From Clostridiales bacterium (GTDB lineage Bacteria > Bacillota > Clostridia > Peptostreptococcales > Acidaminobacteraceae), in NCBI GenBank assembly GCA_030446305.1, contig JASUSA010000009.1:1-64000 (forward strand): DNA of 64,000 nt, in the 5' to 3' direction. Positions 1,533 through 34,048 of the stretch are shown here, in pieces. How positions within the stretch are numbered: the first letter of the stretch is position 1; each line of letters starts with the position of its first letter. The notes below the pieces were generated by a model. The model was given only the letters and a program-made list of their open reading frames with translations. It did no database searches and was not told the DNA's origin. Made by a program: the position numbers and the translations under genes.

Positions 1533-1588
1533 CGAATCTGTCATCTTAAAGTCACCGAGATGTAAGTTTAAAATTCTATGATAAAAAG

Positions 1589-1612
1589 TGAGGAAAAGTC
1601 ATCATTTCCTCA
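1589..1612. promoter_or_regulatory. Inverted repeat upstream of ABC exporter genes
   Basis: Perfect 8-bp arms TGAGGAAA and TTTCCTCA are separated by 8 bases, about 30 bases upstream of the exporter ATPase. No T-run follows, so it is more likely an operator for the adjacent response regulator, or a leader hairpin, than a terminator. Function is inferred from position only. Confidence 0.45.
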
Positions 1613-1642
1613 AGTAACAATACGAGAAAGGAAACTTACAGA

Positions 1643-18245: not shown

Positions 18246-18672
18246 CATGTATTCTGAAATTATTTTAATGCACAATCGAAGCGGGCATAATCGGCATGCG
18301 CTATCAGGCGAAACCCATGCAGAGAGAGGCCATAATCCTAGCTGCGGGGATGATTTGACGCTGCATCTACGCGTTGTGGACGGCATCATCGAATCGGCAT
18401 CCTACACCGGATCAGGCTGTGCGCTCAGCCAAGCATCCATTTCTATTATGATTGATCTCATAACGGGCATGGACGTGGATTCGGCGAAAAATTTGGCGAA
18501 TGACTTCTTTAATATGGCACGTGGTGAAACGATTTCGCCTGAGGCGGAAGAAGCACTTCAAGACGCTATGGCTTTTCAAAATATTGCAAAGATGCCTGCG
18601 CGAACCAAATGCGGGACACTGGGATGGCATTGTCTGACGGCGAGCATCGAAGCTGATGGTGAACAGCAGTAA
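18232..18672 (+). CDS. sufU: Sulfur-transfer protein SufU
   Basis: 146-residue zinc-dependent sulfurtransferase that takes persulfide sulfur from SufS and hands it to SufBCD. The zinc-site and catalytic residues are visible: NPSCGDDL, GSGCALSQAS and RTKCGTLGWHC. The spacing and the insertion before the last Cys are those of SufU rather than IscU. An in-frame ATG at 18205 lies deeper inside sufS; the ATG at 18232 has AAGGAAGG upstream and gives the standard start. Confidence 0.95.
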   Translation: MTDHNMYSEIILMHNRSGHNRHALSGETHAERGHNPSCGDDLTLHLRVVDGIIESASYTGSGCALSQASISIMIDLITGMDVDSAKNLANDFFNMARGETISPEAEEALQDAMAFQNIAKMPARTKCGTLGWHCLTASIEADGEQQ

Positions 18673-18684
18673 AGCAATCGACAC

Positions 18685-18715
18685 TTGACCTATAGTAGGC
18701 TTGAGGTGGTATGAT
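18685..18715 (+). promoter_or_regulatory. MerR-type promoter with 19-bp spacer
   Basis: TTGACC (18685-18690) and TATGAT (18710-18715) are separated by 19 bases, two more than optimal. The spacer holds a dyad CCTATAG-TAGG-CTTGAGG. Over-long spacers with a dyad are the hallmark of promoters activated by MerR-family regulators, which untwist the DNA. Downstream lie a flavodoxin and an aldo/keto reductase, typical MerR-family targets in Firmicutes. No merR gene is in the window. Confidence 0.6.
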
Positions 18716-18758
18716 GATAAGGAAGGCGTACGGATTTGTATCGGTTAAATGAATCAAC

Positions 18759-18786
18759 GCGAAACGAACCAGTGCGAAACGAACCA
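18759..18786 (+). repeat. Tandem duplication, 15-base period
   Basis: GCGAAACGAACCA occurs at 18759 and 18774 in the leader between the MerR-type promoter and the flavodoxin gene; a partial third copy (ACGAGAAAAGG) follows. Non-coding; purpose unknown. Confidence 0.75.
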
Positions 18787-18800
18787 ACGAGAAAAGGATA

Positions 18801-18864
18801 AACTGACGCCTGCCAACGTAAAGCGCTGTCCGCTGAAACATGTGCTCAGGCGTCAGTTATTTTA
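18801..18864 (+). promoter_or_regulatory. Leader hairpin with 12-bp perfect stem before flavodoxin gene
   Basis: AACTGACGCCTG (18801-18812) pairs perfectly with CAGGCGTCAGTT (18847-18858); the loop is 34 bases and the tail ATTTTATG is only moderately T-rich. It ends about ten bases before the ribosome-binding site. It could be an attenuator, an RNA-stability element, or a terminator for readthrough from suf. Confidence 0.55.
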
Positions 18865-18881
18865 TGAAGAGGGGGATACAT

Positions 18882-19394
18882 ATGTCTAAAGTACTAATCG
18901 CCTTTTTTTCGCGAAAAGGCAATAACTATGTTAATGGTGTGATTAAAGATTTAGAGGTTGGCAATACGGAGAAAGTTGCCAATACCATTCAGGTGTTGAC
19001 AGGCGGTGACCTGTTTCACATCGAACCTGTTGATGCATACGATGCAGATTATCACGAGTGTGCAGCGGAAGCCAAAAAAGACCTTCGCGCAAATGCTCGA
19101 CCGGCGTTTCAAAACCCTTTAAAGGCGATTGATGGCTATGATACGGTTTACCTTGGATACCCGAACTACTGGGGAACGATGCCCATGCACGTTTGGACTT
19201 TTTTAGAGCAGTATGATTTTGCAGACAAAGTGATTATGCCATTTTGTACACATGAAGGCAGTGGTCTCGGCCGCAGCGAAAAGGATATCGCCGGACTCTG
19301 TCCAAAAGCGAAGGTCGAAAGCGGTTTGGCGATAAATGGTGGCGATGTCGAAAGTGCTCAGGCGAAGGTTGAAACGTGGATAAGACGTTTGTAG
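18882..19394 (+). CDS. Flavodoxin-family protein
   Basis: 170-residue flavodoxin-fold electron carrier or NAD(P)H:quinone-type oxidoreductase. The FMN phosphate loop is the modified FSRKGNNYVNG at residues 9-19; PNYWGTMPMHVWTFLEQ and CTHEGSGLGRSEKDI form the isoalloxazine-binding parts. I chose ATG 18882 (AGAGGGGG six bases upstream) over an in-frame ATG at 18840 that lies within the leader hairpin. Aldo/keto reductase follows 74 bases later, probably in the same transcript. Flavodoxin could supply electrons to that Fe-S enzyme; this is inference. Confidence 0.88.
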   Translation: MSKVLIAFFSRKGNNYVNGVIKDLEVGNTEKVANTIQVLTGGDLFHIEPVDAYDADYHECAAEAKKDLRANARPAFQNPLKAIDGYDTVYLGYPNYWGTMPMHVWTFLEQYDFADKVIMPFCTHEGSGLGRSEKDIAGLCPKAKVESGLAINGGDVESAQAKVETWIRRL

Positions 19395-19468
19395 GATACA
19401 TCTTATAGGCAGTAACTTGTTGGAAGCGATTTGTAGGATGTGAGACGATTTGAAGAGGGGACAAATGA

Positions 19469-20596
19469 ATGGAATATCGAAAAACGTCAAAAGGGGATGC
19501 GATTAGCGTCATTGGCATTGGTTCAACCATGATGCACGAAATACCGGCAGAGGCAATGACACCTCTGTTTGATGAGGCAGAACGACAGGGTGTCAATCTC
19601 GTCGACTTGGCAATGTCTTATCCGGAGCCGTTTAAGCATATTGGCACCGCGTTGGCAGGCAGACGCGAAAAGTTTTTTATACAGATGCATTTGGGGATGA
19701 TCTTCCCAAATGGTCAATACGAGCGAACACGAGATTTAGAAAAAGTAAAACAAGGCTTCGAAGAACAACTGCAGTGGCTTCAGACGGATTATATCGATTT
19801 TGGCTTTATTCATTATGTCGATGATCTAGAAGATTATCAGCGCGTCTTTGATTCAGGTGTCTTTGACTATGCGAAACAACTGAAACAGGAGGGTGCAATA
19901 CGATACTTAGGGGTCGCTTCACATGTTGCAGATATATGCCTGTGCTTTATCGAAACAGGTGATGTCGATCTGGTGATGTTCAGCGTCAATCCGGCGTACG
20001 ATTTAAACCCCATTGTCAATCTGCCGTTTGACGATCTTGACATGGGCAATTATGAAAAGGCGGAGGCTTATGAACAGCGCCAGCGCTTATACCGAGAATG
20101 TGAGAAGCGCGGCATTGGCCTTCAAGTCATGAAGGCCTTTGGCGGCGGCATCTTGCTGGATGAACAGCGTTCACCGCTGGGACGTGCTTTGAATGTTTAC
20201 CAGTGTCTGCAATATGCGCTGGATCGTCCCGGAGTCTTATCATGTCTGCTTGGTGTCCGATCAAAAGAGGATTTGATTTTAGCGGCTGGTTATGACGATG
20301 CGCCGGCGGCGGATAGAGACTATGCTTTTATTTCCGAATGCCAGACGGTAGACATGAAAGGCGTTTGTGTTTATTGCAACCACTGCTTGCCGTGTCCCGT
20401 GAATATCGACATTGCCGCAGTGAATAAATTTTTAGACTTGTACCATGCGGGCGATTTGCTGGCAAAGAAGCATTATCAGTTGCTGCCGCATCGCGCGGAA
20501 GACTGTATTCAGTGTGGGCACTGTATGGCAAATTGCCCGTTTGGCGTCGATGTCATGGCAAAACTGGCGCAGGCGCAGGCAGAGATGACACTTTAA
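19469..20596 (+). CDS. Aldo/keto reductase with C-terminal 4Fe-4S domain
   Basis: 375-residue fusion. Residues 1-280 are an aldo/keto reductase barrel (LVDLAMSYPEPFKHIGTAL with the catalytic Asp/Tyr region, IQMHLGM, DYIDFGFIHYVDD, IRYLGVASH). Residues 290-370 form a ferredoxin-like domain with two Cys clusters: CVYCNHCLPCPVNIDI and CIQCGHCMANCPFGVDV. Such fusions are common in anaerobes and may couple carbonyl reduction to ferredoxin or flavodoxin instead of NADPH alone. Part of the MerR-type transcription unit with the flavodoxin. Confidence 0.92.
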   Translation: MEYRKTSKGDAISVIGIGSTMMHEIPAEAMTPLFDEAERQGVNLVDLAMSYPEPFKHIGTALAGRREKFFIQMHLGMIFPNGQYERTRDLEKVKQGFEEQLQWLQTDYIDFGFIHYVDDLEDYQRVFDSGVFDYAKQLKQEGAIRYLGVASHVADICLCFIETGDVDLVMFSVNPAYDLNPIVNLPFDDLDMGNYEKAEAYEQRQRLYRECEKRGIGLQVMKAFGGGILLDEQRSPLGRALNVYQCLQYALDRPGVLSCLLGVRSKEDLILAAGYDDAPAADRDYAFISECQTVDMKGVCVYCNHCLPCPVNIDIAAVNKFLDLYHAGDLLAKKHYQLLPHRAEDCIQCGHCMANCPFGVDVMAKLAQAQAEMTL

Positions 20597-20676
20597 ACCT
20601 GCTTTTCTACACGAAACATTGGCACGAGACGTTATTCGCCATACCGATTGCCGGATTGAACCATTAAATTGTTTTT

Positions 20677-20707
20677 TCACATTTTTCTCACATTTACATG
20701 TTACACT
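20677..20707 (+). promoter_or_regulatory. Direct-repeat operator with promoter before response regulator
   Basis: TCACATTT occurs at 20677-20684 and again at 20688-20695, an 11-base period, followed by a possible -10 TACACT at 20702-20707. Direct repeats one helical turn apart, upstream of the -10, are the standard target of OmpR/PhoB-class regulators, so autoregulation is likely. Confidence 0.55.
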
Positions 20708-20752
20708 GACAGACAAAACCTTTAATGAAATGCGATAACAGGAGGCAGTAAA

Positions 20753-21421
20753 ATGCCGAATCTACTGATTGTAGACGACGATATTTACTTAAGAAAACTG
20801 ATACTGAATTATGGTGAACGCGAGGGCTTTAACTGTTTTGAAGCAGGAAACAGCATTGAAGCGAAGACGATGCTAAAAGCACATGCTTTTGATATGATTA
20901 TTTTAGATGTCATGATGCCGGGAGAAGATGGCTTCGACTTGCTGGTCGATATTCGCACGGAAAGTGCCGTGCCTGTTATTATGCTGACTGCACGGGATGA
21001 AGAGTACGACAAGCTGTACGGTTTTGAAATAGGTGCCGATGATTATGTTGCCAAGCCGTTTAGTCCTAAAGAGTTGATGGCGCGCGTACATGCCGTTCTA
21101 AAGCGGTACAGGTGCCTAACATCTGATGAGATATGCTTTGGCAAGCTGGCCATTCATCCTGCTTCACGTCAAGTTCGCATTGATGAAGACGTCATCTCGC
21201 TGCCGCCAAAAGAATACGATCTCTTGATTTACTTGACGCAAAATGTGAATATTGCCCTCCATCGCGAACAGCTTTTGAATCGCATATGGGGATATGATTA
21301 CAGCGGCGATACGCGAACGCTGGATACCCATATAAAATCGCTTCGCGATCATTTGGGAGAGTATCGAGAAAATATAAAAACCGTGTGGGGTGTGGGGTAC
21401 AAATTTGAATATCATTCATAA
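20753..21421 (+). CDS. OmpR/PhoB-family response regulator
   Basis: 222-residue response regulator. Receiver: acidic pair at residues 8-10 (VDDD), phospho-acceptor Asp52 in IILDVMMPGEDG, MLTAR, and Lys101 in DDYVAKPFSP. C-terminal winged helix ends with VWGVGYKFEYHS. The kinase gene overlaps its 3' end by 32 bases. TCACATTT direct repeats upstream suggest it controls its own promoter. The regulated function cannot be deduced from the neighbours. Confidence 0.95.
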   Translation: MPNLLIVDDDIYLRKLILNYGEREGFNCFEAGNSIEAKTMLKAHAFDMIILDVMMPGEDGFDLLVDIRTESAVPVIMLTARDEEYDKLYGFEIGADDYVAKPFSPKELMARVHAVLKRYRCLTSDEICFGKLAIHPASRQVRIDEDVISLPPKEYDLLIYLTQNVNIALHREQLLNRIWGYDYSGDTRTLDTHIKSLRDHLGEYRENIKTVWGVGYKFEYHS

Positions 21422-22865
21422 AATCGTTTATTTACTGCAATCGAAGATTACGGTGCGCCTATGGGCTATTATGATGGGGCTTATCATCTTTATGTTGGCC
21501 TTTCTTTGGGGTGTCCAGTTTTTTCTCTTTGAAGAAAATTACGTCAATTCAACCGTTGAAACGGTACAACTGCGCTTAAAACCGCTGGTTGACGAACTAA
21601 AGACGAAAGATCTCAAAACGGATGAAGATTTAATTATAACCCTCAGTAAAGCGACGAACAGCAAGATGATGCTCATGGATGCTGAAGGCGAGATTGTGGC
21701 GATGTACAGTCAAGGCCACAAGTTGATGGATTCGTCGTCGTTTGACTCAATGAGCTGGCTATTGCCGTATCTGCGCGCCTCTGAATCTTTTCAAAAAGTA
21801 TATGAAGGCATTGCCTATAATCGCGTTATTCGGAACGAGGACAGCCCCATTGCGCTGGAAATAGGCATTCCGGTGCTTTACAATGGGGATGCCTGTGCCG
21901 TGATCCTATATCATACAATGGATGAACTGCATACGGTACTTCAATTAAATCGATACTATTTAAGTATTCTTACGGTCATCCTAATCGTTGTGGCGGCTGT
22001 TATATCGGCGATTTTATCCAAGCACTTCGTCAGGCCTATTCACAAAATTAAGGGCACTGTTGATGAGCTGGCAAAGGGCAATCTTTCGGCAAAGCCGGAT
22101 GTTGAATTGAAAGATGAGCTCGGGCAGCTTTCAAATGCTGTCAGAGATTTGGGAACGGCGCTTCAACGGGTGGATGTCTTGCGGAAAGAAGTCATTGCCA
22201 ATGTATCGCATGAACTGCGATCACCGCTGTCATTGATTCGCGGCTATGCAGAAATGCTGAGGGATCTGCACGGCGAAGACCCTGAAAAGCGTGAAGAGGA
22301 TTTGACGCTGATTATTAATGAATCCACGCGCATGAGTACCATGGTTAATGATATTCTTGACTACTCTCAGATTCAAGCGGGCTATATTCAGCTTAAGAAA
22401 ATAGAAGTCAATCTCGTTGAATTTATTCAAACAGAACTGACGCACTTTGATAAAATTGCCGAAACCTATGCGGTTACTATCGAACTGAAAGCGCCTGATG
22501 AACCAATTCGAACACAGGTAGATGTGCTCAAGATGGGACAGGTCATTGGCAATCTTATGAACAATGCCATCAATCACACGGAAGATTACGGTGTTGTGAA
22601 AGTTGAGATAACAGCAAGCGAACAAACCGCCCGCGTGTCGATCGGCAATCCCGGAACGCCGATCCCCGATGAAATGAAAGACGTCATATGGGAGCGATTT
22701 CAAAGAGCACAACATGCCGGGAGCCGCAAATCGGGAACGGGATTGGGACTGTCCATTGTAAAGACGCTGCTGGAAGCGCATCAAATGGCCTATGGTGTTG
22801 ATTCGGCTGATGGCTGGAATTACTTTTGGTTTGAATGTCAATTAAGCATTAGAACGCGTGCATAA
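21390..22865 (+). CDS. Sensor histidine kinase with HAMP domain
   Basis: 491-residue membrane kinase, partner of the preceding regulator. One helix at about 18-42, an extracytoplasmic domain of about 140 residues, second helix at about 190-212, HAMP at 213-265, His-box VSHELRSPLSLIRGY, then ATPase boxes (NLMNNAINHTEDYG; SGTGLGLSIVK). The start is a GTG at 21390 inside the regulator gene; a TTG at 21405 is an alternative. The stop codon lies inside a terminator stem, so translation end and transcription end coincide. Confidence 0.93.
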   Translation: MWGTNLNIIHKIVYLLQSKITVRLWAIMMGLIIFMLAFLWGVQFFLFEENYVNSTVETVQLRLKPLVDELKTKDLKTDEDLIITLSKATNSKMMLMDAEGEIVAMYSQGHKLMDSSSFDSMSWLLPYLRASESFQKVYEGIAYNRVIRNEDSPIALEIGIPVLYNGDACAVILYHTMDELHTVLQLNRYYLSILTVILIVVAAVISAILSKHFVRPIHKIKGTVDELAKGNLSAKPDVELKDELGQLSNAVRDLGTALQRVDVLRKEVIANVSHELRSPLSLIRGYAEMLRDLHGEDPEKREEDLTLIINESTRMSTMVNDILDYSQIQAGYIQLKKIEVNLVEFIQTELTHFDKIAETYAVTIELKAPDEPIRTQVDVLKMGQVIGNLMNNAINHTEDYGVVKVEITASEQTARVSIGNPGTPIPDEMKDVIWERFQRAQHAGSRKSGTGLGLSIVKTLLEAHQMAYGVDSADGWNYFWFECQLSIRTRA

Positions 22866-22887
22866 TTATTTATGCTCGCGTTTTTTT
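22853..22887 (+). terminator. Terminator overlapping kinase stop codon
   Basis: AACGCGTGCATAA pairs with TTATGCTCGCGTT and is followed by a T-run. The UAA stop is within the stem, so ribosomes reach the hairpin. Confidence 0.88.
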
Positions 22888-23092
22888 ATGATTGATCTTC
22901 ATTAGGGATGTGGCAATTGTTGGAATAGGCTGAAATGCAGGGGGAACGCTAATTGACGCTGATAGTGAAAAACAATTCAATATGCTAATTTAAAGGCTTT
23001 TAGCGGGTTTTAACAAAATGCTAGATGGAAAAACACACAAGAAGCATTTTTTGTAATAAGCGATAAAATAAAGGGAGTGATGAAAAAATAGA

Positions 23093-23121
23093 TTGCATAA
23101 ATAATCATAAAAAGCTATAAT
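23093..23121 (+). promoter_or_regulatory. Promoter of ArgD-type aminotransferase gene
   Basis: TTGCAT (23093-23098) and TATAAT (23116-23121) with a 17-base spacer, 29 bases before the start codon and followed by a GGGAGG site. The rest of the gap 22888-23092 shows nothing I can assign. Confidence 0.7.
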
Positions 23122-23149
23122 AATACAAAATTACCCATAGGGAGGACTT

Positions 23150-24358
23150 ATGCAATCAATTGATAAACACACGACAAATGAATGGCTGACCGCAGCAGAT
23201 CAGCATATACTCTATACGACCAACCGCCCGGCAGTAATTATGGAACGCGGCGAAGGCATGTATTTATGGGATACAGAAGGCAAGTGCTATTTGGATTTCA
23301 TTGGCGGTTGGGCTGTGACATGTCTGGGACATGCACCAAAAGCCATTGAAAAGGCACTGATAGAACAGGCTGGGCAGCTCATCAATGCCAGCCCGGCTTT
23401 TTACAATGTGCCAATGATCGCGTTCGCGAAAATGCTCACGGAGTTGACGTGTTTTGATAAAGTTTTTTTCACCACAAGCGGCTCGGAAGCCAATGAAGGG
23501 GCAATTAAACTTGCGAGAAAGTACGGTCAGAAATATCTTGGTGGTGCTTATGAAATCATTACGACTGTCAACAGTTTTCACGGCAGAACGCTGGCGACGA
23601 TGTCTGCCACGGGCAAGGATTACTGGGAACCGCTGTTTGCGCCAAAGGTATCGGGGTTTATTCATGTGCCTTTTAATGATATTGAGGCGATCAAGGCTGC
23701 AATTACAGATAAGACGTGTGCGATCATGCTGGAACCCGTCCAAGGTGAAGGTGGTGTCAATGTTGCAGATCCAGTTTATGTAAAAGCAGTTCGAAAAATA
23801 TGCGACGCGCATAACATACTGCTTATTTTTGACGAGGTACAGACGGGTATGGGCAGAACCGGCAAGATGTTTGCTTATGAACACTATGACATAGAGCCGG
23901 ATATCATGACACTGGCAAAGGGGATTGGCGGCGGGTATCCGCTTTCGGCAATGCTTACCAAAGCGGCATATAATATTTTTGATGCAGGTGACCAAGGTGG
24001 TACTTATACGGCGCAGCCGTTGGGCATGGCGGTTGGCATGGCAGTTCTCGAAACGATAGTAAAGGAGAAAATCGTTGAAAATACAGTGGCTCAAGGTGCC
24101 TATCTCATGGAATGCCTCAATGCAATGGGGGGAGACTATGGCATAAAATCTGTTCGAGGCATGGGCTTGCTCATTGCCTTTGACCTGCCTGAACCTAAAG
24201 GGGCAGAGGTGGTTGCTGCCTGTCTTGAAAAGGGCTTGCTCATTAATTCACCAAAGCCGGCTACCATTCGATTGATGCCGCCGCTCATTGTCACACGTGA
24301 AGCGATTGACAGTATGTTAAAGACGATGACGGAGGTTTTGGCGTCTGTTTTGAAATAA
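23150..24358 (+). CDS. Class III aminotransferase, acetylornithine aminotransferase-like
   Basis: 402-residue PLP enzyme of the ArgD/OAT group. Landmarks are TTSGSEANEGAIKLARKYG, SFHGRTLATMSATG, LIFDEVQTGMGRTGKMFAYE and the PLP Lys in TLAKGIGGGYPLSAML. It most likely transfers the delta-amino group of N-acetylornithine (arginine biosynthesis). It stands alone with its own promoter and terminator rather than in an arg operon, so another omega-amino acid is possible (ornithine, succinylornithine or 4-aminobutyrate). Confidence 0.85.
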   Translation: MQSIDKHTTNEWLTAADQHILYTTNRPAVIMERGEGMYLWDTEGKCYLDFIGGWAVTCLGHAPKAIEKALIEQAGQLINASPAFYNVPMIAFAKMLTELTCFDKVFFTTSGSEANEGAIKLARKYGQKYLGGAYEIITTVNSFHGRTLATMSATGKDYWEPLFAPKVSGFIHVPFNDIEAIKAAITDKTCAIMLEPVQGEGGVNVADPVYVKAVRKICDAHNILLIFDEVQTGMGRTGKMFAYEHYDIEPDIMTLAKGIGGGYPLSAMLTKAAYNIFDAGDQGGTYTAQPLGMAVGMAVLETIVKEKIVENTVAQGAYLMECLNAMGGDYGIKSVRGMGLLIAFDLPEPKGAEVVAACLEKGLLINSPKPATIRLMPPLIVTREAIDSMLKTMTEVLASVLK

Positions 24359-24461
24359 TGCGTGTATAACGAGATTATTTAGCAATGCCATCGTGATGAT
24401 TAAGAAATTATTTAGAAACCATTTAAAAATCACTTTACAGAGATTTTGCCGATGAAACATG

Positions 24462-24490
24462 AAAGCGTTCTTCATATGAGCGCTTTTTTT
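24462..24490 (+). terminator. Rho-independent terminator after aminotransferase gene
   Basis: AAAGCGTTC (24462-24470) pairs with GAGCGCTTT (24478-24486) with one G-T pair, followed by T-run. The remaining gap to 24720 shows only the GGGGGG ribosome-binding site of the next gene. Confidence 0.88.
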
Positions 24491-24720
24491 AGTGAGAAGA
24501 TTGCGGCGCATCCAATCCTTTGGATCATCTTGGTGCGATACAAGCGCACGCAAGGGGTTGCAAAGCTGGTGTCTTTTACAGCCGTGCTGCGTGTGATGCC
24601 ATGCTTTCAAAAATATAAAGCGCAGTTGCCTTCTCAACAATTGTCGAAGTGCCTTGAAAAAGCGCAGTGGACACAGTAAAATGGAAAGGGAGAACATTTT
24701 AACCGGGGGGATTGGCTGCA

Positions 24721-26670
24721 GTGCGAGCATTCTTACACAATCAAAGACAAAAGTTCATACAAGTCATGCAATTCAACAGCATTTTTTTCAAGGCGATCTT
24801 TATTTTGTTCGTCTTGATTTTTATTATAATCCTAGGGTTTTATTATTATGTCAATTCCAGCTATCAAGCGGCGTATAAAGACAAACGCGTTGATGAAAAC
24901 ATCACGGTACTCGCATCGATAAACCGTGAAGTCGATTTGAATATATCGGCGCTGGATGTTCAAGTTCAAGATATTCTCAAAGGCGATGAGACGCTGAGCA
25001 TGGCGATCAGCGGTAATGATGATGCATTTTATCCCATTGATATTGCACTGACGCTCTATACGTTTGCCGCTCGAAATCCTTGGGTTGATACGGCGACATT
25101 ATACATAAAGAACTGCGGGATTGCGATGGATTCTGATAAGAATATAATAGAGGATGTATCCGATGATTTATTTAAGGAACATCGTTATTTTGGCGATGGT
25201 TATCTGAGGTGGTATGAAGGTGAACTCTATTACATGGCTGGCTTTCCCACTGAAAAGCATTTGGCAGTCATGGCGATTCGCCTTGATCGTGAGCGCATGT
25301 ACAATTATTTAGTCGATGAAGTAAATATGGACCCAACACATAGTTTTCTTTATTTTGAAGATATACCTGTTTTTGATTCGTTTTGCAATTATCCAAAAGC
25401 GTTACTCAGTTCGATTGATTTTTCAGAAAAGCTTAGCAGTCAGGCAACCATTGCAAAGGCTAATGAACAGGGCAAGTTAAAACTTAGGTACATTTCTCAG
25501 AAAACGGGGTTTGACTGGCTGATTGATATGGAAGAATCCTATTTGTATCCTGGGCTGAGTGATGTGCTCATACAGATGTCGCCGTTTTTAATCGGTATTC
25601 TGCTGTTGTCGATGGGCGCTTTCTATTATATGCTGAATTATGTTTATAAGCCGATTAAACAAGTTATGGAATCGGTAAAGGGTTATCAGCAAAACAAGGC
25701 AGATCATGAAGCGATGAATGAACTCGATACGATACAGCGGTTTTTTGAAGATAACCTGCAAAAGCAAGCGCTTTTGGAAAGGGCACTTTCAAGTGTAGAA
25801 CAGGAAGTATCAGACCGCTTTATCATGAATTTAGCACAGAACGAGCATGTTGATGCCGACTATGTCAATCAATTCTTGGATGAGATTAATACACCGTATC
25901 GTGATGACGGCAGGTATCAGGCAATGGTTTTAAAGCGCTTGAAACCCGGTGGTGATCATTATTTGACAATGTACATGCAAATCAGCTTTTTGCATCAGTT
26001 GAGAGCTTTTTGGCATGATAAGGCCTATAGCTGTATTTGCGAAACTTCTACAGGCGATATTGTGCTCATTCATCAGTATCCTCCCAAGCATTCGTCTGTG
26101 ACGGTGAAAAGCGATCTGACACAATTTGAAAATTATTTGCATGGAATCGAGGCGGGCGAATACTATTGTCTGGGCATTGGCAGAATTTACGATGCGCTTT
26201 TGCAGGTTCGCCAGTCATATACAGATGCTGAAACCAATGCGATGATGCGCATGGCGAAGCGCAACGGCAGTATGACGATAAAGAAAATACCAACCGTTCG
26301 TGAACCTGAAACAGTGGAAACCGGTAAAGACATTTTGCATATTGCACATGCGAAAAGCTATATTGAAGAACATTTTGCCGACAGCAATCTTTCACTCAGT
26401 GAAGTCAGTGAGGCCTGCGCCATCAACAGTTCCTATTTGTCCCGACTATTTGTTGAATATCTCTCACAAGGTTTTTTGGAATACCTGAACAAGCACCGGA
26501 TTGCATATTCTGAAACGCTTCTGATTGGCAGCGAACTGACGGTTTCAGAAATTGCTTCAAAGTCAGGGTTTAATTCATCTCAGAGTTATATTCGCGTCTT
26601 TAAGAAGTATAATCATGAAACACCGGGTCTCTTTAGGGCGAGAAAGGTAGGTGCACATGAAAAGTCATAA
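24721..26670 (+). CDS. Membrane-anchored AraC-family regulator with extracytoplasmic sensor
   Basis: About 649 residues. One helix at about 20-47, an extracytoplasmic sensor of Cache type to about 285, a second helix at about 287-310, a cytoplasmic linker, then two AraC helix-turn-helix motifs at about 545-640 (DSNLSLSEVSEACAINSSYL; TVSEIASKSGFNSSQSYIRV). This one-component transmembrane layout is known in Firmicutes (YesS/YtdP type), usually beside sugar ABC transporters. The GTG at 24721 is preceded by GGGGGG at the right distance; the TTG at 24712 is too close. The next gene, a TRAP-type binding protein, overlaps its end by 14 bases, implying the two act together. Confidence 0.87.
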   Translation: MRAFLHNQRQKFIQVMQFNSIFFKAIFILFVLIFIIILGFYYYVNSSYQAAYKDKRVDENITVLASINREVDLNISALDVQVQDILKGDETLSMAISGNDDAFYPIDIALTLYTFAARNPWVDTATLYIKNCGIAMDSDKNIIEDVSDDLFKEHRYFGDGYLRWYEGELYYMAGFPTEKHLAVMAIRLDRERMYNYLVDEVNMDPTHSFLYFEDIPVFDSFCNYPKALLSSIDFSEKLSSQATIAKANEQGKLKLRYISQKTGFDWLIDMEESYLYPGLSDVLIQMSPFLIGILLLSMGAFYYMLNYVYKPIKQVMESVKGYQQNKADHEAMNELDTIQRFFEDNLQKQALLERALSSVEQEVSDRFIMNLAQNEHVDADYVNQFLDEINTPYRDDGRYQAMVLKRLKPGGDHYLTMYMQISFLHQLRAFWHDKAYSCICETSTGDIVLIHQYPPKHSSVTVKSDLTQFENYLHGIEAGEYYCLGIGRIYDALLQVRQSYTDAETNAMMRMAKRNGSMTIKKIPTVREPETVETGKDILHIAHAKSYIEEHFADSNLSLSEVSEACAINSSYLSRLFVEYLSQGFLEYLNKHRIAYSETLLIGSELTVSEIASKSGFNSSQSYIRVFKKYNHETPGLFRARKVGAHEKS

Positions 26671-27724
26671 GCGGATGCTAAAAGTGCTTCTTTTGATCGT
26701 GGGAGTAATTGTCGGTGCAGCTGCATACAAGCATTTTGTTATTTCTGCGCCGACAGAGATTGCGAAACATTCGAGTACGGTTCAAAATATTGAACCAAAC
26801 GGCAAAGTCATTATATTAACGCATTCAGAGCAGACGAACAGTGTTACCCATGAGTTGGCCGTTTATTTCAAAGAACGCCTTGAACATCTTTCGAATGGTG
26901 AACTGCACGTTAGCATTTACGGAGAAAATACTCTGGGAAGTTTAAATGATGGCATCAACGGCATCTCGAACGGCACGTTTGAAATGCGGCTGGGCATGGG
27001 CCCCTCAAGGATTATGCGCGTGATTACATGGCTTCCCTCTATTCTCGGAACGAGTTCGCAGGTAATTGACCAAGCGCTGGCAAACAATGAACAGCTCAAG
27101 GCAATGATCGAAGCAGAAAATAATGCGGACGGTGTCTATTTACTGGGCATGATGCCGTCTCGTTATCGAATTCTGACGAGCAATAAACCGGTAGAGACGT
27201 TGGCAGATCTCAAAGGTATGAAAATTCGTACCATTAATGACGGGATTGAATCTGATTTCTGGCGGTGTCTTGGTGCTGAGCCAAGTGCTTTTAATATTGA
27301 ACAGGTATATATGGCGCTTAAGCAAGGCATTGTGGAGGCGCAGGAAAATACAATCCCAAGCATTGTGAGCAATAAAATTTACGAATGTCAGACGAACGTC
27401 ATACGCACCAATCACAAAGTATACTTTGATTCCTTCTATATCAATTTGGATTACTATAATGCGCTTTCAGATACAGAGCGGATGTGGATCGCCTCAGCGG
27501 TATCAGATGCCATAGACTTTGGGCGAGACAAACTAAAGGATTATGAACGTGAGGGGCTTGAAACCATTATAGAAAGTGGCGTGGAAGTGAGTTCCATCTC
27601 AGACGTAGAGAAGCAGAAAATGATTGATATTGCATCACCGCTTCTCGTTAAAAGTTTCGAAGACGCAGACGGCGAGGCGTTGGTTAATGACGTCATTACA
27701 CTGTTTCGTGATGAAATGAACTAG
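26657..27724 (+). CDS. TRAP-type substrate-binding protein (DctP-like), no permease genes nearby
   Basis: 355-residue extracytoplasmic binding protein of the DctP family. Hydrophobic N-terminal segment (residues 9-25) without a lipobox Cys, so it is exported or stays N-anchored. Family features: NSVTHELAVYFKERLEHLSN, GNGELHVSIYG-type strand, and LADLKGMKIRTINDG followed by GAEPSAFNIEQVYMALKQG with the Arg that binds substrate carboxylates (KIRT). TRAP uptake needs DctQ and DctM membrane subunits, and none is here. Overlap with the membrane AraC gene suggests a sensory role: the loaded protein would dock on the regulator's outer domain. That is inference. Confidence 0.85.
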   Translation: MKSHKRMLKVLLLIVGVIVGAAAYKHFVISAPTEIAKHSSTVQNIEPNGKVIILTHSEQTNSVTHELAVYFKERLEHLSNGELHVSIYGENTLGSLNDGINGISNGTFEMRLGMGPSRIMRVITWLPSILGTSSQVIDQALANNEQLKAMIEAENNADGVYLLGMMPSRYRILTSNKPVETLADLKGMKIRTINDGIESDFWRCLGAEPSAFNIEQVYMALKQGIVEAQENTIPSIVSNKIYECQTNVIRTNHKVYFDSFYINLDYYNALSDTERMWIASAVSDAIDFGRDKLKDYEREGLETIIESGVEVSSISDVEKQKMIDIASPLLVKSFEDADGEALVNDVITLFRDEMN

Positions 27725-27788
27725 AGCACAGTGAATAAAAAAGATGAGTTCCTGTGCTGCACAACTAAAATTTTATATAAGCAATAAG

Positions 27789-27821
27789 AAAAATGTCGGT
27801 ATAAAATACCGGCATTTTTTT
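27789..27821 (+). terminator. Rho-independent terminator
   Basis: AAATGTCGGTAT and ATACCGGCATTT form a nearly perfect stem followed by TTTTTT, separating the AraC/TRAP pair from the tat operon. Confidence 0.9.
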
Positions 27822-27993
27822 ATGCGATGAACAATTTTATCAATACAAGCGATCAATATTCAATAATTGACATTTTCAAATGAAGTGTTATTGGAAGCCG
27901 CTAAATGACAAGGATTGTAAATGTACAAATATCTGAACAACGTGATATAACAGTGTTAACACCGCTATAAGCCTTTAACAGGAGGTGATTTGT

Positions 27994-28197
27994 ATGAGGC
28001 TTGGAACAAATGAACTAATGCTAATATTGTTAATTGCTTTGGTCATATTTGGACCGACTAAGTTGCCTGAGCTTGGCAAGCTCGCAGGGTCAATGATGGG
28101 AACGGTCAAAAAACAGATCGACAGCATGGGTGAAGAAATCAAAGAGGTTGATGAAATCATCAAGGAGACGGTTGTTGAGAAAGGAGACATATCATGA
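27994..28197 (+). CDS. tatA: Twin-arginine translocase subunit TatA (first copy)
   Basis: 67-residue pore-forming subunit of the Tat exporter. One N-terminal helix (NELMLILLIALVIFGPTKLP) with the FGP hinge, then an amphipathic helix and a charged tail. Start at 27994, after AGGAGGTGATTT. The stop overlaps the next start (ATGA at 28194-28197). In Gram-positive bacteria TatA is bifunctional (TatA and TatB roles). Confidence 0.95.
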   Translation: MRLGTNELMLILLIALVIFGPTKLPELGKLAGSMMGTVKKQIDSMGEEIKEVDEIIKETVVEKGDIS

Positions 28198-28367
28198 GAT
28201 TGGGAACGACAGAATTAATGGTTATATTGGGGATCGCCGTTTTAATATTTGGTCCTTCAAAGCTGCCACAGCTTGGCAAGGCGATGGGACAAACCATCGG
28301 GAATTTTAAAAAGAGCATGGTTGATACAGAAAGCGATTCTTTAAAAAAGGAAGGAATTGATGCTTAA
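28194..28367 (+). CDS. tatA: Twin-arginine translocase subunit TatA (second copy)
   Basis: 57-residue second TatA-type protein: MRLGTTELMVILGIAVLIFG, then PSKLPQLGKAMGQTIGNF and a short tail. It is clearly homologous to the preceding 67-residue copy, probably from local duplication, but has diverged and lost most of the acidic tail. It starts inside the stop of the first copy and its stop overlaps the tatC start (TAATG). A TatA/TatB-like division of labour between the two copies is possible. Confidence 0.93.
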   Translation: MRLGTTELMVILGIAVLIFGPSKLPQLGKAMGQTIGNFKKSMVDTESDSLKKEGIDA

Positions 28368-29170
28368 TGGAGCACACCGGCAGTGACGCTTTAACAAAGC
28401 GTAAACCACGGTTTCAAAAATTGCATAATCTCTTTAATGAAGGTGCATCAGAAAATAAAATGTCGATAATAACGCATTTGGCTGAATTTAGAAGACGGCT
28501 TATTGCATGTCTCGTGGTCTTTGCGGTCACATTTTTCGTCAGCTTCTATTATGCAGAATGGATTGTAACCCATTTAAGAGCATTGGGTGAGAATTTTAGT
28601 TTTATTTATATTTCACCAACGGAGTTAATGCTTTCCTACATTCGGATTGCCGTTATTGCCGGCATTGTGATTTCTTTTCCAGTGATCGGTTATAATTTGT
28701 GGCGATTTTTGTGCCCTGGACTGACGGTTAAGGAGAAGATGGGTTTCTTTGCAATCTTGACATTTGGCGTCCTACTGTTTTTAACAGGTGCGGCTTTCTG
28801 TTACGTGATTGTAATGCCCTTGGCACTGAGATTTTTAGGCGGTATTAACATGGACGGCAGCATTATGCCGATGGTATCTATTCAGAATTACCTTTCATTC
28901 GTATTAAGCATGTTAATCACATTCGGTATTGTCTTTGAACTGCCGATTGTCACGATTTTGTTAACGAAAATAGGATTGCTAAATCCGCTGTTTCTTAAGA
29001 AGAATCGAAAGTATGTCTTTCTGTTGACATTTGTGGTCGCCGCAATTATAACGCCGCCGGATATCACAACGCAGATTTTGGTAGCACTGCCGATGATGGT
29101 GCTCTTTGAAATCAGCATTGCACTATGTAGTATTTTATTTCGAAAACGGCTGAAAAATATGTCGTGTTAG
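28367..29170 (+). CDS. tatC: Twin-arginine translocase subunit TatC
   Basis: 267-residue six-helix receptor that recognises the twin-arginine signal. SIITHLAEFRRRLIACLVVF contains the conserved H-L-x-E-x-R-x-R; LWRFLCPGLTVKEKMGF and FGIVFELPIV (conserved Glu) follow. Compared with typical TatC (about 240-260 residues) it has an extra polar N-terminal extension of roughly 25 residues. Last gene before the large Tat substrate, 33 bases away. Confidence 0.95.
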   Translation: MEHTGSDALTKRKPRFQKLHNLFNEGASENKMSIITHLAEFRRRLIACLVVFAVTFFVSFYYAEWIVTHLRALGENFSFIYISPTELMLSYIRIAVIAGIVISFPVIGYNLWRFLCPGLTVKEKMGFFAILTFGVLLFLTGAAFCYVIVMPLALRFLGGINMDGSIMPMVSIQNYLSFVLSMLITFGIVFELPIVTILLTKIGLLNPLFLKKNRKYVFLLTFVVAAIITPPDITTQILVALPMMVLFEISIALCSILFRKRLKNMSC

Positions 29171-29203
29171 TTTATTCAAAATAATATTGATGGGGGATAG
29201 AAA

Positions 29204-31855
29204 ATGAATATTCAGACCAAAGAACCACATGGTATTACGAGAAGAACGTTTTTAAAAGGCCTCGCAGCAGGTGCTGCAGGGATTAGCATTGCCTCAATTA
29301 TGCCCGGCAACGTCATTAGTGCCGCAATGGTTGCAGCAGACGATGTCGTACATACAACAGACAGCGATGCGAAAAAGCTAAAAGATGGTATTTACATTGA
29401 CGGCAATACGACGAACATGAGCGGTAGCCGCTATCGTCTTGAATTTATTCAACCGGTTAAACTTATTGCCGTTATTGGCGGCGTTATTCAAACAGAAGGG
29501 ACTTGGCGCTCAGAAAATAAACACCTTGTCTCCGTTGATCCGGACGGTACCATCGTTATGAGAGATGGTGTCGGCGGTTATGATGTTGCCGTTTCTTTTA
29601 CAGAAGGCAACAGTGTACACAAAGTTACATTTACCACCAGCCAAACAGCAGGTGCTTATGCCATTGAAGTCGACAGACCGATTAACAGAGGTGCTTTTAT
29701 GATCCGCCTTGCCAATTACTTTGGATGGCCGCATTATAATGCCGTGATGGATGATGGGACGGATATTGACGAAAAAGGCAATATCTTAAAGAAAGAACGC
29801 GTGCGTAATTTCTATGATGTAACGGGTAACAGCGATTATGTCAAAGCGATTGAAAGCGCACTGGATATGGGCGTGATCAGTGCGGCGAGCATTGATGACA
29901 AATTCTATCCAATGTCTGTTATGACGCGTGAAGATGCAGCGGTTATTATTTGCAGTGCTTTTAAACTAGAACCGCTGGATACAGATTATCTATCACTTTT
30001 CAGTGATGTGAAACAAGTGAGCAAGGAAGCCTATAGTGCATTAAATACTTTATTTGGCATGAATATTATGCGCGGCAGAACCAATGACAGCATTAATCCA
30101 CTGGATGGCATTACGGATACAGAAGAGCGTATTATGATTGAATCGCTTAACAAAAAAATCGTTTCACCTGTATGGTCAATGCCTGTATCGCTTCGTAAAT
30201 TCGTTAGATGCCGTCCTGAATGGTTTACGCCGACGGAAGGTGCAACCGTGCACTGGCGAACAAGAGCATTTAATATTTCGCATAAAGAACTGCTTGGCTT
30301 GTTTATTCAGGACCGTGGCGTGGGCGTAACACTGGAAGAAAATTGGGGACCATGGTATGACTACATTCCAGGTTTTTCAACAGACCCTATGTTCGGTCTT
30401 AACAATAACAAGGACTTGCCTTATGACAATATTTATTTCTGCGTTGAAGTAGAAGCATATGCAACAAAAGAAGGCATGAAGGACAGCCCGATGAGTCGCT
30501 TTATTTGGCGCATCGACAGACCGGCTTGGCATGATTTCGCCATTGATAAACTGCATGAGGGTTCTGCAAACTTCCCGACAGTTTATCGTTTCTTTGATAA
30601 TTTCCAAGCAGCGGCATTCTACATCGAAGGCAGCAAAATGGGCATTCTCTATGATGGGCTAGTACCAACCAATACGAGCACATCGCTGGTTGACGTTATC
30701 AAAGCAAAATATGCGACGAAACCATTTATCTTTGTATTGGGACACAACCATCCGGATCATATGGGTGCAATGGCTTCTGCCTATGACATGGGACTGGATG
30801 TCTATATCTGTGACCGCGTTGGACCGATGGGCGGCAATTGGAGTATTGATGTTTACGGTAAAGACTATACCAGTGCGAATCAGAATATTGTCAGCTCGAA
30901 AGCGGGAACGTATACGGGTTCTAAAATGCATCTAATGAAAGAAGGCGACAAAATAGATCTTGGCAACGTTACCTTTGAAATGATGCGTCTGCCGGGTCAC
31001 TGCGATGACCAGATGATGCTTTACAGCAAAGAAACTGGTTTATTGTTCTCATCCGATATCTATGGTGTCAATCGCTACTGGGTAGCTGACCAGTTTGGCG
31101 CAAGAGGGATTAAACTCGATCTGCTGCTGTCGCTGCATCAACAGCTCTTTGATAAATACAATGAAGGCGGCAGTGCCGTTAAGGAGCTCTACACAGGTCA
31201 TAATCGAATTGGTGTAGGTTCAGATTATTTGATGGTTTGGGAGCAATGTATTCAAAAACTCGTCAACTTTGGCCAAGATAGTATTTCGGATGACAGACGC
31301 GGTGACGGTGCTGTGATGGTCATGGATGGCAATAGCTATGACACATTGAACTGGACGGCATTTGCCATTAGCGGGAAACAAATTATTTCCGATTACAGCG
31401 GTAAATACGACAAACAAGGATTCAGCAGACTTGAAGTTGACAACACGGGTGAAAATCCACTGATCGAAAGCAATCTCTTATATGATATTAAGAGCAATGC
31501 ACAGCTCAGCAATGTTTATTTTAAAGACGCCAAACTCGTCGGGCATGACTTTAATTACAAAACCGGATTTGATACAGTCAATGACCGTTTGGCAGATGGC
31601 AGACTGAAATATGTCATCGAAAACAAGTTCGTACCTTATGAATACAAATACGATGTTAAAATAGCACTGGGACAAACCAGTGTGACACTGACGCCGATCG
31701 CAATGTCAGACATGATTTCCGGCCTGACAGTGAACGGTAAAAAAGCATCCAGCAGATGTCCGGTTACCGTATCAACACTCAAGCCTGCTGTGATTAGAAT
31801 CGTTGCACCAGACGGAAAATCCGTTCAGCAATATACGTTTAACTTCACAGTTTAA
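29204..31855 (+). CDS. Tat-exported metallo-beta-lactamase-fold hydrolase with SLH-like region
   Basis: 883-residue exported enzyme. Tat signal: TRRTFLKGLAAGAAGISIAS at residues 13-32. Residues 60-165 look like an Ig-like domain. Residues 210-310 resemble S-layer-homology repeats (VISAASIDDKFYPMSVMTRE; YLSLFSDVKQVSKEAYSALN). A metallo-beta-lactamase domain spans about 440-700 with HNHPDHMGA (His514, His516, Asp518, His519), His599 in LPGHCDDQ, Asp618 in SSDIYG and His666 in TGHNRIG, a complete two-metal site. A C-terminal Cadherin-like/Ig-like tail follows (about 790-883). Substrate unknown. It directly follows tatAAC and is the only protein with a twin-Arg signal in the window, so it may be the dedicated client. 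Confidence 0.88.
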   Translation: MNIQTKEPHGITRRTFLKGLAAGAAGISIASIMPGNVISAAMVAADDVVHTTDSDAKKLKDGIYIDGNTTNMSGSRYRLEFIQPVKLIAVIGGVIQTEGTWRSENKHLVSVDPDGTIVMRDGVGGYDVAVSFTEGNSVHKVTFTTSQTAGAYAIEVDRPINRGAFMIRLANYFGWPHYNAVMDDGTDIDEKGNILKKERVRNFYDVTGNSDYVKAIESALDMGVISAASIDDKFYPMSVMTREDAAVIICSAFKLEPLDTDYLSLFSDVKQVSKEAYSALNTLFGMNIMRGRTNDSINPLDGITDTEERIMIESLNKKIVSPVWSMPVSLRKFVRCRPEWFTPTEGATVHWRTRAFNISHKELLGLFIQDRGVGVTLEENWGPWYDYIPGFSTDPMFGLNNNKDLPYDNIYFCVEVEAYATKEGMKDSPMSRFIWRIDRPAWHDFAIDKLHEGSANFPTVYRFFDNFQAAAFYIEGSKMGILYDGLVPTNTSTSLVDVIKAKYATKPFIFVLGHNHPDHMGAMASAYDMGLDVYICDRVGPMGGNWSIDVYGKDYTSANQNIVSSKAGTYTGSKMHLMKEGDKIDLGNVTFEMMRLPGHCDDQMMLYSKETGLLFSSDIYGVNRYWVADQFGARGIKLDLLLSLHQQLFDKYNEGGSAVKELYTGHNRIGVGSDYLMVWEQCIQKLVNFGQDSISDDRRGDGAVMVMDGNSYDTLNWTAFAISGKQIISDYSGKYDKQGFSRLEVDNTGENPLIESNLLYDIKSNAQLSNVYFKDAKLVGHDFNYKTGFDTVNDRLADGRLKYVIENKFVPYEYKYDVKIALGQTSVTLTPIAMSDMISGLTVNGKKASSRCPVTVSTLKPAVIRIVAPDGKSVQQYTFNFTV

Positions 31856-31929
31856 TGACGTGTACGAACCGTATATGATGTACCTGCAAATTTGAACATG
31901 ACGTTCACGGTCATTAGCTGTGTTGACTA

Positions 31930-31975
31930 AAGAACCCTGGCCCGTAAGTATATACCGAGGGACAGGGTTCTTTTC
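31930..31975 (+). terminator. Rho-independent terminator
   Basis: AAGAACCCTG (31930-31939) pairs with CAGGGTTCTT (31963-31972), then TT. It ends the tat-hydrolase unit. Confidence 0.85.
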
Positions 31976-32037
31976 AAAATCGCTCTGACGGGGTGTGTCA
32001 TAGCTTTACTGCGATAGAGATCAATAAGGGGAACTAA

Positions 32038-32640
32038 ATGAAAGAGAAGCATAGAATAAATGATGAGCTGAAACGGACAAATCGTTCTCAAAACCTCAAG
32101 CGAGAAAGAATGAAATCTTTTTTTATCGAAGCGGCAAAAGACATCGTCGTCGAATCGGGTGCAAGTGCACTTTCAGTCAGAAGCGTTGCAGACAGAGCTG
32201 GGTATTCTTATGCGACGATCTACAATTATTATGAAGATTTGGATGCACTGCTCTGGGATGTGAAACAGTCGTTTATTAAAGATTTACATACATTTCTCAT
32301 TCGATATATGCCCGACGTCAGTGAACCTGAGGCATTAAAAAAACTATTTAGACAGTATGTGGCTTTTTATATTGAAAATCCCAATATTTTTTCCTTTTTC
32401 TATTTTACGATTTTAGATGATGAACGGGATCATATTGAGATGATGCATAATTGTTTTATCGCGATTCGTATTTTAGAAACAGAGCCACTGATCGTCAAAG
32501 CACGTCAAAGAACGGATGCATCCGCAACGACCTGTGCCTATGCTATCCACGGATTGCTGATGCTTCACTTTTCATCCAACGGCGCAGCAGATGCATTGTG
32601 GCGAGACTTGGAAAATGCATTGCTGCTGCTGGATGGGTAA
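32038..32640 (+). CDS. TetR-family transcriptional regulator
   Basis: 200-residue regulator. N-terminal helix-turn-helix at about 30-75 (SVRSVADRAGYSYATIYNYY). The ligand domain (LLWDVKQSFIKDLHTF; FFYFTILDDERD) is not diagnostic. GGGGAAC site before the ATG. It ends 2 bases before the convergent end of the alcohol dehydrogenase gene, which is a plausible but unproven target. Confidence 0.9.
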   Translation: MKEKHRINDELKRTNRSQNLKRERMKSFFIEAAKDIVVESGASALSVRSVADRAGYSYATIYNYYEDLDALLWDVKQSFIKDLHTFLIRYMPDVSEPEALKKLFRQYVAFYIENPNIFSFFYFTILDDERDHIEMMHNCFIAIRILETEPLIVKARQRTDASATTCAYAIHGLLMLHFSSNGAADALWRDLENALLLLDG

Positions 32641-32642
32641 AC

Positions 32643-33755
32643 TTAATCCAAATTGATGACGACTTTAACGGCGCTCGATGGATCGGAAGCGATTTCAAAA
32701 GCTTTTTCAGCATCTTCAAGCGGAAAGACGTGCGAAATAATTTCGGTTACTTTGGAATTGTGATTGTCTAAGTTTTGGATAACTTCTTCAATATCGGCAC
32801 GGTCGTAACCGCGAGATCCCATGATGGCACACTGTGTGCTCATTACTTCGTGAAAACGAATGGGAACAGCGTCTTTGTGCACGGCGATACAGCAAAGTCT
32901 GGCATGCTGTTTCGCATGTTTCATGAAGAGATCCACATACTCAGGGCGTCCGGCACAGTCGATAACAGCGTCAATGTCGAATACAGGATTGGCTTCAACC
33001 GTCATTTCGCCATTATTCATACTGATGCGGTGATTGGTATTAAACATCGTACCGAAATGTGATGTTAAGAATTCAACAATCGCTTCCTGACCTTTTGAGG
33101 CGTTAAAACCAGTGCCGCCCATTTTCTCAGCTAATGCCAGACGTCTGTCGTCAATATCCAATACAGCTACATGGCTGTTGCCTTGTGCAATGAGACTGCT
33201 CAGTGCACAGAGCCCAATGGTGCCTGCACCAATAATGAGAACGTTTTCCCCCGGTTTGGCGCCGACGGTGTTTTTGCCGTGTGTTGCGACGCTGAAGGGT
33301 TCAATGAGGACGGCATCTGAATAGGGAAGTGAGTCCGGCAAGAGGAAGAGGTTGTCGTTTACTTTTGCGTTATAAACGCGAACGAACTGTGAAAATGCAC
33401 CGGCCATGTCGGCATTATATGGGTTTGGCGTACATCGCGCAGGCTCTACAAAAACCCTGGCACCAACGGCGATATCATTGACGTTGGTGCCTTTTTTATA
33501 GACGTAACCAACCATTTCATGACCAAATTCACTGCCTTTATTAATGAGAACTTTTTCGCCCCCATAGAGATAGCCGGTGATATCGGTACCGCAAATACCT
33601 GCGCGGACATTTCTGACGATTACATCATTGGGACCGCATTCAGGGACATTTTTCTCGACGAGTTTAACATCTTTGATGTCTTGATAAATAAGTGCCTGCA
33701 TTGTTTGTGTGCTTATAGAAGCTTGTGTGTTTTCATTTGTCATTTGATTATTCAT
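32643..33755 (-). CDS. Zinc-type medium-chain alcohol/polyol dehydrogenase
   Basis: 370-residue NAD(H)-dependent dehydrogenase. Catalytic zinc ligands: Cys in GICGTDITG, His-Glu in FGHEMVG, and the Glu of LIEPFSVATHG. Rossmann motif IIGAGTIGLCALSS followed by AVLDIDDRRL, where Asp predicts NAD rather than NADP. The four Cys of the structural zinc lobe are absent (PARCTPNPYNADMAGAFSQF has just one), so the lobe is degenerate. Compared with threonine or butanediol dehydrogenases the N-terminus has a 20-residue Gln/Thr/Asn-rich extension; a GGAG site supports the ATG at 33755. Substrate unknown. Confidence 0.87.
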   Translation of the reverse strand: MNNQMTNENTQASISTQTMQALIYQDIKDVKLVEKNVPECGPNDVIVRNVRAGICGTDITGYLYGGEKVLINKGSEFGHEMVGYVYKKGTNVNDIAVGARVFVEPARCTPNPYNADMAGAFSQFVRVYNAKVNDNLFLLPDSLPYSDAVLIEPFSVATHGKNTVGAKPGENVLIIGAGTIGLCALSSLIAQGNSHVAVLDIDDRRLALAEKMGGTGFNASKGQEAIVEFLTSHFGTMFNTNHRISMNNGEMTVEANPVFDIDAVIDCAGRPEYVDLFMKHAKQHARLCCIAVHKDAVPIRFHEVMSTQCAIMGSRGYDRADIEEVIQNLDNHNSKVTEIISHVFPLEDAEKAFEIASDPSSAVKVVINLD

Positions 33756-33947
33756 ATCTTTAACTCCTTGTTTTTTATTTTTTGAATTATCTTTTTTAGT
33801 TTAGTATTGGCTTATTAAAAGTGATTGCCTACTGACACCCTTATTATGAAGGGCAACTATTTTTAAGTTGTTTCAAAAGTGTTTGCAGTATATTAATCCG
33901 TCATCATTTTGATGCAATTAAGATTTTATTTTTGCATGTTTGGATCG

Positions 33948-33956
33948 TGGTATAAT
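33948..33956 (+). promoter_or_regulatory. Extended -10 promoter of MalT/LuxR-type regulator
   Basis: TGGTATAAT (33948-33956) is an extended -10 with no convincing -35. It starts a leader of about 180 bases carrying repeats. Confidence 0.5.
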
Positions 33957-33976
33957 AAGAAATAATGTGGCGAAAC

Positions 33977-34048
33977 GGTATCGTTGTGAAAACGATACCA
34001 CTGAAAAACGGTACTATTGTGAAACTTCACCATTGTGAAAACTGCACG
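33977..34048 (+). repeat. Inverted repeat and imperfect tandem repeats in regulator leader
   Basis: GGTATCGTT (33977-33985) and AACGATACC (33991-33999) form a perfect 9-bp inverted repeat. TTGTGAAA-like words recur at 33984, 34001 (CTGAAAAAC), 34017 and 34033, a period of about 16 bases. The block lies at and after the transcription start, so it could bind a regulator, perhaps the LuxR protein itself. The remainder of the gap 33756-34142 shows nothing else. Confidence 0.55.

Follow-up and report, generated by a model that had tools for sequence, protein, structure and literature searches.

Two overlapping genes of the window (the whole 64,000-nt stretch of DNA analyzed here) probably form one sensory unit, in which a solute-binding protein (SBP) of the DctP family, dedicated to sensing, would serve a membrane-spanning one-component regulator of the AraC family without any kinase. 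The AraC gene (24721–26670) and the DctP gene (26657–27724) overlap by 14 nt, as the first-pass annotation had described, and the same 14-nt overlap is present in Fusibacter paucivorans DSM 12116 (locus L057), which is the nearest named relative and the sole genome matched in the contig scan. Between the two species, AraC was 91.5% and DctP 84.8% identical, with dS of 0.94 and 1.62 and dN/dS of 0.047 and 0.054, respectively, indicating that both proteins are maintained by purifying selection. Plasmid records gave 0 matches. The source assembly comprises 3.40 Mb in 126 contigs with a completeness of 90.55%. The features of the unit are as follows.

24654–24682, + strand: candidate promoter of the pair, sigma-70-like (TTGAAA-17-TAAAAT), 10/12 match to the consensus
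24721–26670, + strand: membrane-spanning AraC-family regulator, 649 aa, GTG start (alternative TTG at 24712); ORF, Pfam, hydrophobicity
24781–24837, + strand: regulator hydrophobic segment 1, residues 21–39; hydrophobicity
24838–25563, + strand: regulator outer (extracytoplasmic) domain, without a Pfam match, collinear with the dCache_1 regulators among its relatives; alignment
25564–25620, + strand: regulator hydrophobic segment 2, residues 282–300; hydrophobicity
25900–26232, + strand: GGDEF-like (GGDEF_2) domain of the regulator; Pfam
26362–26643, + strand: AraC DNA-binding domain (HTH_AraC/HTH_18) of the regulator; Pfam
26657–27724, + strand: DctP, TRAP-type SBP, 355 aa, ATG start, without a lipobox; ORF, Pfam
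26687–26743, + strand: DctP N-terminal hydrophobic segment, residues 11–29, probable membrane anchor; hydrophobicity
27227–27229, + strand: Arg191 codon, in the column of the conserved carboxylate-binding arginine; DctP alignment
27794–27821, + strand: terminator-like hairpin plus T-run, end of the unit; sequence, kept in F. paucivorans

The regulator, the binding protein and their surroundings

The regulator was matched in Pfam by HTH_18 (9e-15) and HTH_AraC (1e-12), both above the cut-off, and by GGDEF_2 (1e-5). Its AraC-type DNA-binding domain places it in the AraC/XylS family, and the Pfam search returned no kinase domain, indicating that it is a one-component AraC protein and not the partner of a two-component system. 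The kinase/regulator pair at 20753–22865 is a separate unit, separated from the AraC-DctP pair by an aminotransferase gene. The window regulator gave no match to Cache domains even at E 10, and its first 540 residues gave no match to solved structures up to E 10. It aligned end to end with the regulators of family f32 described below, of which 3 of the 4 tested were matched by dCache_1 (E 5e-14 to 2e-18). A fold model of the outer domain, built from two sequences, reached a pLDDT of 40.7 and was discarded as a basis for fold searches.

The binding protein was matched by PF03480 at 1.3e-45 over profile positions 3–284 of 286, which assigns it to the DctP family, and its homologues of solved structure reached E values down to 2.9e-26. 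A ribosome-binding sequence that we judged good, AAAGGTAGG, lies ahead of its ATG, inside the AraC gene. The N-terminal hydrophobic segment is a probable membrane anchor that would stay uncleaved; a cut by signal peptidase there is also possible. Arg191 and Arg171 are both present, two residues conserved across almost all DctPs in the alignment. The column of Arg191 holds R in 47 of 51 DctP rows, being A in three anchored DctPs of f32 and absent in a DctP fragment of genome G144 (see below), and Arg191 is the presumed counterpart of SiaP Arg147 (R147), judging from the K-I/L-R motif column. As given in an excerpt of PMC4646407, the conserved arginine occurs in 5943 of 6142 DctP sequences, and the R147A and R147K substitutions of SiaP abolished high-affinity transport.

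The candidate promoter stretch consists of identical letters in F. paucivorans. The terminator proposed after the pair in the first-pass annotation was also borne out, in that a hairpin, TGTCGGTA-TAAAA-TACCGGCA, followed by T7, was seen at 27794–27821; its weight comes from the hairpin with a T-run at the equivalent place in F. paucivorans, as the pattern scan alone stood at chance level (5 terminator-like sites versus 4.0 in shuffles, with this hairpin listed on the − strand only). The Rfam search over 22800–34000 gave 0 families at the gathering score. The genes upstream of the pair differ between the source genome and F. paucivorans. At 24508–24627 of the window, a remnant of an amidohydrolase C-terminus was observed (40 codons, 70% identical, with a stop inside), the remainder of the gene being absent; the same amidohydrolase is intact in F. 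paucivorans, upstream of the AraC-DctP pair.

Relatives of the regulator and their TRAP loci

Within the host family, the full-length regulator was found in the genus Fusibacter only (2 of 41 genomes at E 1e-20). When the class was searched with the sensor part, the best foreign match was the regulator of G369, located directly upstream of DctP-DctQ-DctM; the second was that of G211, with no TRAP gene near. In both the class and the order scans, at most 3 candidates per genome were scored, such that weaker regulators may escape. In the family of G369 (f32, 6 genomes), three genomes yielded 8 regulators at E 1e-40. Each of the 8 lies ahead of a full DctP-DctQ-DctM set in the same orientation, with an opposite-strand ORF intervening in L079. 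At three of these eight loci (L073, L074, and L075), an extra DctP of 363–369 residues overlaps the AraC gene or lies within 30 nt of it, placed ahead of the transporter's lipoprotein DctP; the other five regulators have no extra DctP adjoining.

Searching the host's order with the aligned f32 regulators added one further TRAP-linked regulator, that of G144, which stood outside the alignment used as the query. The gene order there is AraC, a gap of ~15 nt, a 166-residue DctP-like gene, an RraA-like gene, a mandelate-racemase-like gene, a lipoprotein DctP, DctQ, and DctM. The 166-aa DctP-like product (L149, 7898–8398), which adjoins AraC, matches the family over its first part and one late part only, the middle of the fold being missing. 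It has a hydrophobic N-terminal segment, and its best matches are the anchored DctPs of f32 (47% over 64 residues).

All nine related regulators found outside Fusibacter (eight of f32 and that of G144) thus precede a complete TRAP operon, and four of the nine have an extra non-lipobox DctP no more than 30 nt away from AraC. The first-pass annotation had read the binding protein as a co-sensor of the membrane AraC regulator and had looked to conserved, transporter-free pairs of the two families as support. The four abutting loci outside the genus, together with the TRAP-linked branch of regulators described next, lend comparative support to the co-sensor idea. The transporter-free state was confined to the two Fusibacter genomes.

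The regulators were compared in a quick tree with long branches (n = 40), which omits L108 (split frame) and L116 (internal stop) and in which one branch (SH-aLRT 99) split 11 TRAP-linked regulators from the 29 others; the 11 include those of the window and F. paucivorans, counted through their DctP. Label shuffles were as low as the observed arrangement in 0 of 500 cases. The window regulator groups with L065 on a long stem, and the program marks this grouping as possibly false. In the DctP tree (n = 47), the Fusibacter orphans and the three anchored DctPs of f32 stand in different places, on long stems of 2.48 and 1.01, respectively. This points to two separate origins for the regulator-abutting DctPs, such that their recurrence would be convergent, or else to an ambiguous history.

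The DctPs abutting AraC also differ from those beside permeases in their N-termini. None of the six AraC-abutting DctPs carries a lipobox, compared with 39 of 45 permease-adjacent ones by the strict rule and 42 of 45 when S-x-G-C is allowed; the Fisher p values for this contrast (5e-5 and 5e-6, respectively) are overstated because the six are partly kin. Three permease-adjacent DctPs with a hydrophobic N-terminus (L036, L042, and L045) are likewise without any lipobox and apparently tethered, so the trait alone is no marker of a sensor.

A DctP was found at the locus of G144 alone among the order-scan loci examined (L121–L148, n = 28), and at none of six weaker f32 regulators (L089, L112, L113, L115, L116, and L119) within the stretch compared. 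The other membrane AraC regulators of Clostridia from the class scan (L084–L109, many beside ABC-type genes) have an identical order of parts but differ in that a DctP stands beside the regulator in 0 of 26. Four of these 26 loci (L084, with its pair at 1543–4716, L094, L095, and L108) carry an SBP gene of another family (Peripla_BP_4 or SBP_bac_1) within 20 nt, and such close SBP-AraC pairing may be more widespread in Clostridia.

Direct ligand binding is common among dCache_1 domains, and the AraC protein might accordingly sense the ligand by itself via its Cache-like domain, DctP being merely a co-transcribed SBP that makes no contact with the regulator. The dCache_1 matches in the related regulators and the five f32 regulators that manage without an adjoining extra DctP are in line with such direct sensing. 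We nevertheless consider it unlikely, since the two genes are tightly coupled with a conserved overlap, the extra DctP recurs next to AraC only, and an SBP without its own permease would have nothing to deliver to.

Orphan status of the binding protein

No DctQ or DctM gene was found among the ORFs of 18000–34000 around the pair, in agreement with the initial view that neither belongs to the unit. A functional TRAP subunit would be encoded together with DctQ and DctM, but neither stands beside the pair in the window or in F. paucivorans, and the DctM genes of the assembly lie elsewhere. Assembly-wide, 7 DctP and 9 DctM matches were obtained. Each of six full-length DctM genes is adjoined by a lipoprotein DctP; two further DctM matches are long fused permeases, each with a binding-protein-like lipoprotein gene nearby, as read from ORF order and N-termini; and the remaining match is weak (29 bits). 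Among the seven DctP genes, that of the window alone has no DctM neighbor. At the order level, 28 of 28 examined foreign DctP loci adjoin DctM, a count that stands beside 21 further matches outside it.

The window DctP could alternatively be an uptake SBP whose DctQM permease is encoded at another site or in sequence that the assembly lacks, a role with which the retention of Arg191 and Arg171 agrees and for which the incompleteness of the assembly leaves room. This is quite improbable, as the six full-length DctM proteins have a DctP of their own, the two fused permeases have an SBP-like gene, and the pair of F. paucivorans likewise has no DctM in the 11.9 kb around it. The case that the first-pass annotation had set against its own reading, a TRAP permease elsewhere in the genome that depends on this binding protein, is unlikely on the same grounds. 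Very hard to credit, and already disfavored by purifying selection, is the view that the pair is decaying after an AraC-DctP-DctQ-DctM operon lost its permease genes: the regulator's relatives all head complete TRAP operons, the upstream amidohydrolase of the window is reduced to 40 codons, and the partner DctP of G144 is truncated, yet both genes are intact in two species, with dN/dS ~0.05 at dS 0.9–1.6 and the overlap kept.

The proposed sensor and its known counterparts

In the sensory unit that we propose, DctP would be tethered to the membrane on its outer side, where it would bind a carboxylate, the canonical arginine being present, and would dock on the regulator's Cache-like outer domain. 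Docking in the ligand-loaded state would act through the two membrane helices on the linker and GGDEF-like domain and from there on the AraC DNA-binding domain, which would then switch its target genes. In the relatives, the TRAP operon directly downstream is probably what is regulated, with its own lipoprotein DctP performing the uptake. The Fusibacter pair stands alone, so its target would lie elsewhere, or the TRAP genes have been lost. The anchored DctPs of f32 are without the arginine kept by the window DctP and hence may work differently. The conserved gene pair is real, and an SBP-assisted one-component sensor is a plausible reading of it.

DctB of Bacillus subtilis is an orphan of the DctP family. 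It is the accessory co-receptor of the C4-dicarboxylate sensor unit DctB-DctS-DctA (Graf et al. 2014, as excerpted from PMC6978683). Similarly to DctB-DctS, an accessory binding protein would act here with a membrane sensor; however, a histidine kinase and response regulator are used there with participation of the transporter DctA, whereas the membrane AraC protein would bind DNA itself. The CuaD-CuaSR system of Ruminiclostridium cellulolyticum has a second SBP for sensing, which is distinct from the uptake SBP and encoded beside the sensor, and the discussion of the same report mentions similar systems with two SBPs in C. beijerinckii and G. stearothermophilus (PMC10384115). The division between a sensing-dedicated SBP beside its sensor and a separate uptake SBP is shared with the unit proposed here, although CuaD-CuaSR combines an ABC-type SBP with a two-component system, as against a TRAP-type SBP with a one-component regulator. 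In the BctC-BctDE citrate system of Bordetella pertussis, the SBP of a tripartite transporter contacts the sensor and is needed for induction, according to PMC5812351. Here too, an SBP of the tripartite-transporter type is paired with a sensor, the contact known for BctC-BctDE being proposed from the genes in our case; unlike here, BctC belongs to the TctC family, a single SBP serves both transport and signaling, and the sensor is a histidine kinase.

In the portion of PMC9602780 on which we draw, SBP-activated receptors are chemoreceptors, kinases, c-di-GMP enzymes, and Ser/Thr kinases; membrane-bound transcription factors do not appear among them. Our literature search, which covered titles and abstract openings and had most subscription journals outside its coverage, found no description of an AraC-DctP sensor. 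We tentatively raise the possibility that these loci represent a sensor class undescribed in the literature searched, namely a membrane one-component AraC protein with its own tethered TRAP-type SBP apart from the uptake SBP, with at least two origins in Clostridia. In f32 and G144, where the arginine or the middle of DctP is lost, the SBP might be a pure relay or adaptor detecting something other than free carboxylate, perhaps the permease or the transport DctP in its loaded form, while Fusibacter would retain a ligand-binding form without a linked transporter. If this is true, SBP-assisted sensing would extend to the simplest signaling architecture, with one protein reaching from the outer domain to DNA, and TRAP systems too would use one SBP for sensing and another for uptake. 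Because some tethered DctPs have lost the arginine, signaling by an SBP in the absence of its usual ligand becomes open to test.

F. paucivorans shares with the window the block in which the pair is followed by tatA, tatC, an SLH-domain gene, TetR, and alcohol dehydrogenase. This tat/SLH block was considered as the target of the regulator and is not favored, as it has a highly conserved upstream region of its own with a GTGTTAACAC palindrome and a terminal TetR gene. In the window (27994–31855), inspection of the sequence shows two small TatA-like ORFs in it; TatC comes next, then a protein of 883 aa that has an SLH domain and a match to the Tat signal. This protein also carries a metallo-beta-lactamase-like HxHxDH motif. 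It is possible that 27994–31855 encodes a dedicated Tat system together with its substrate.
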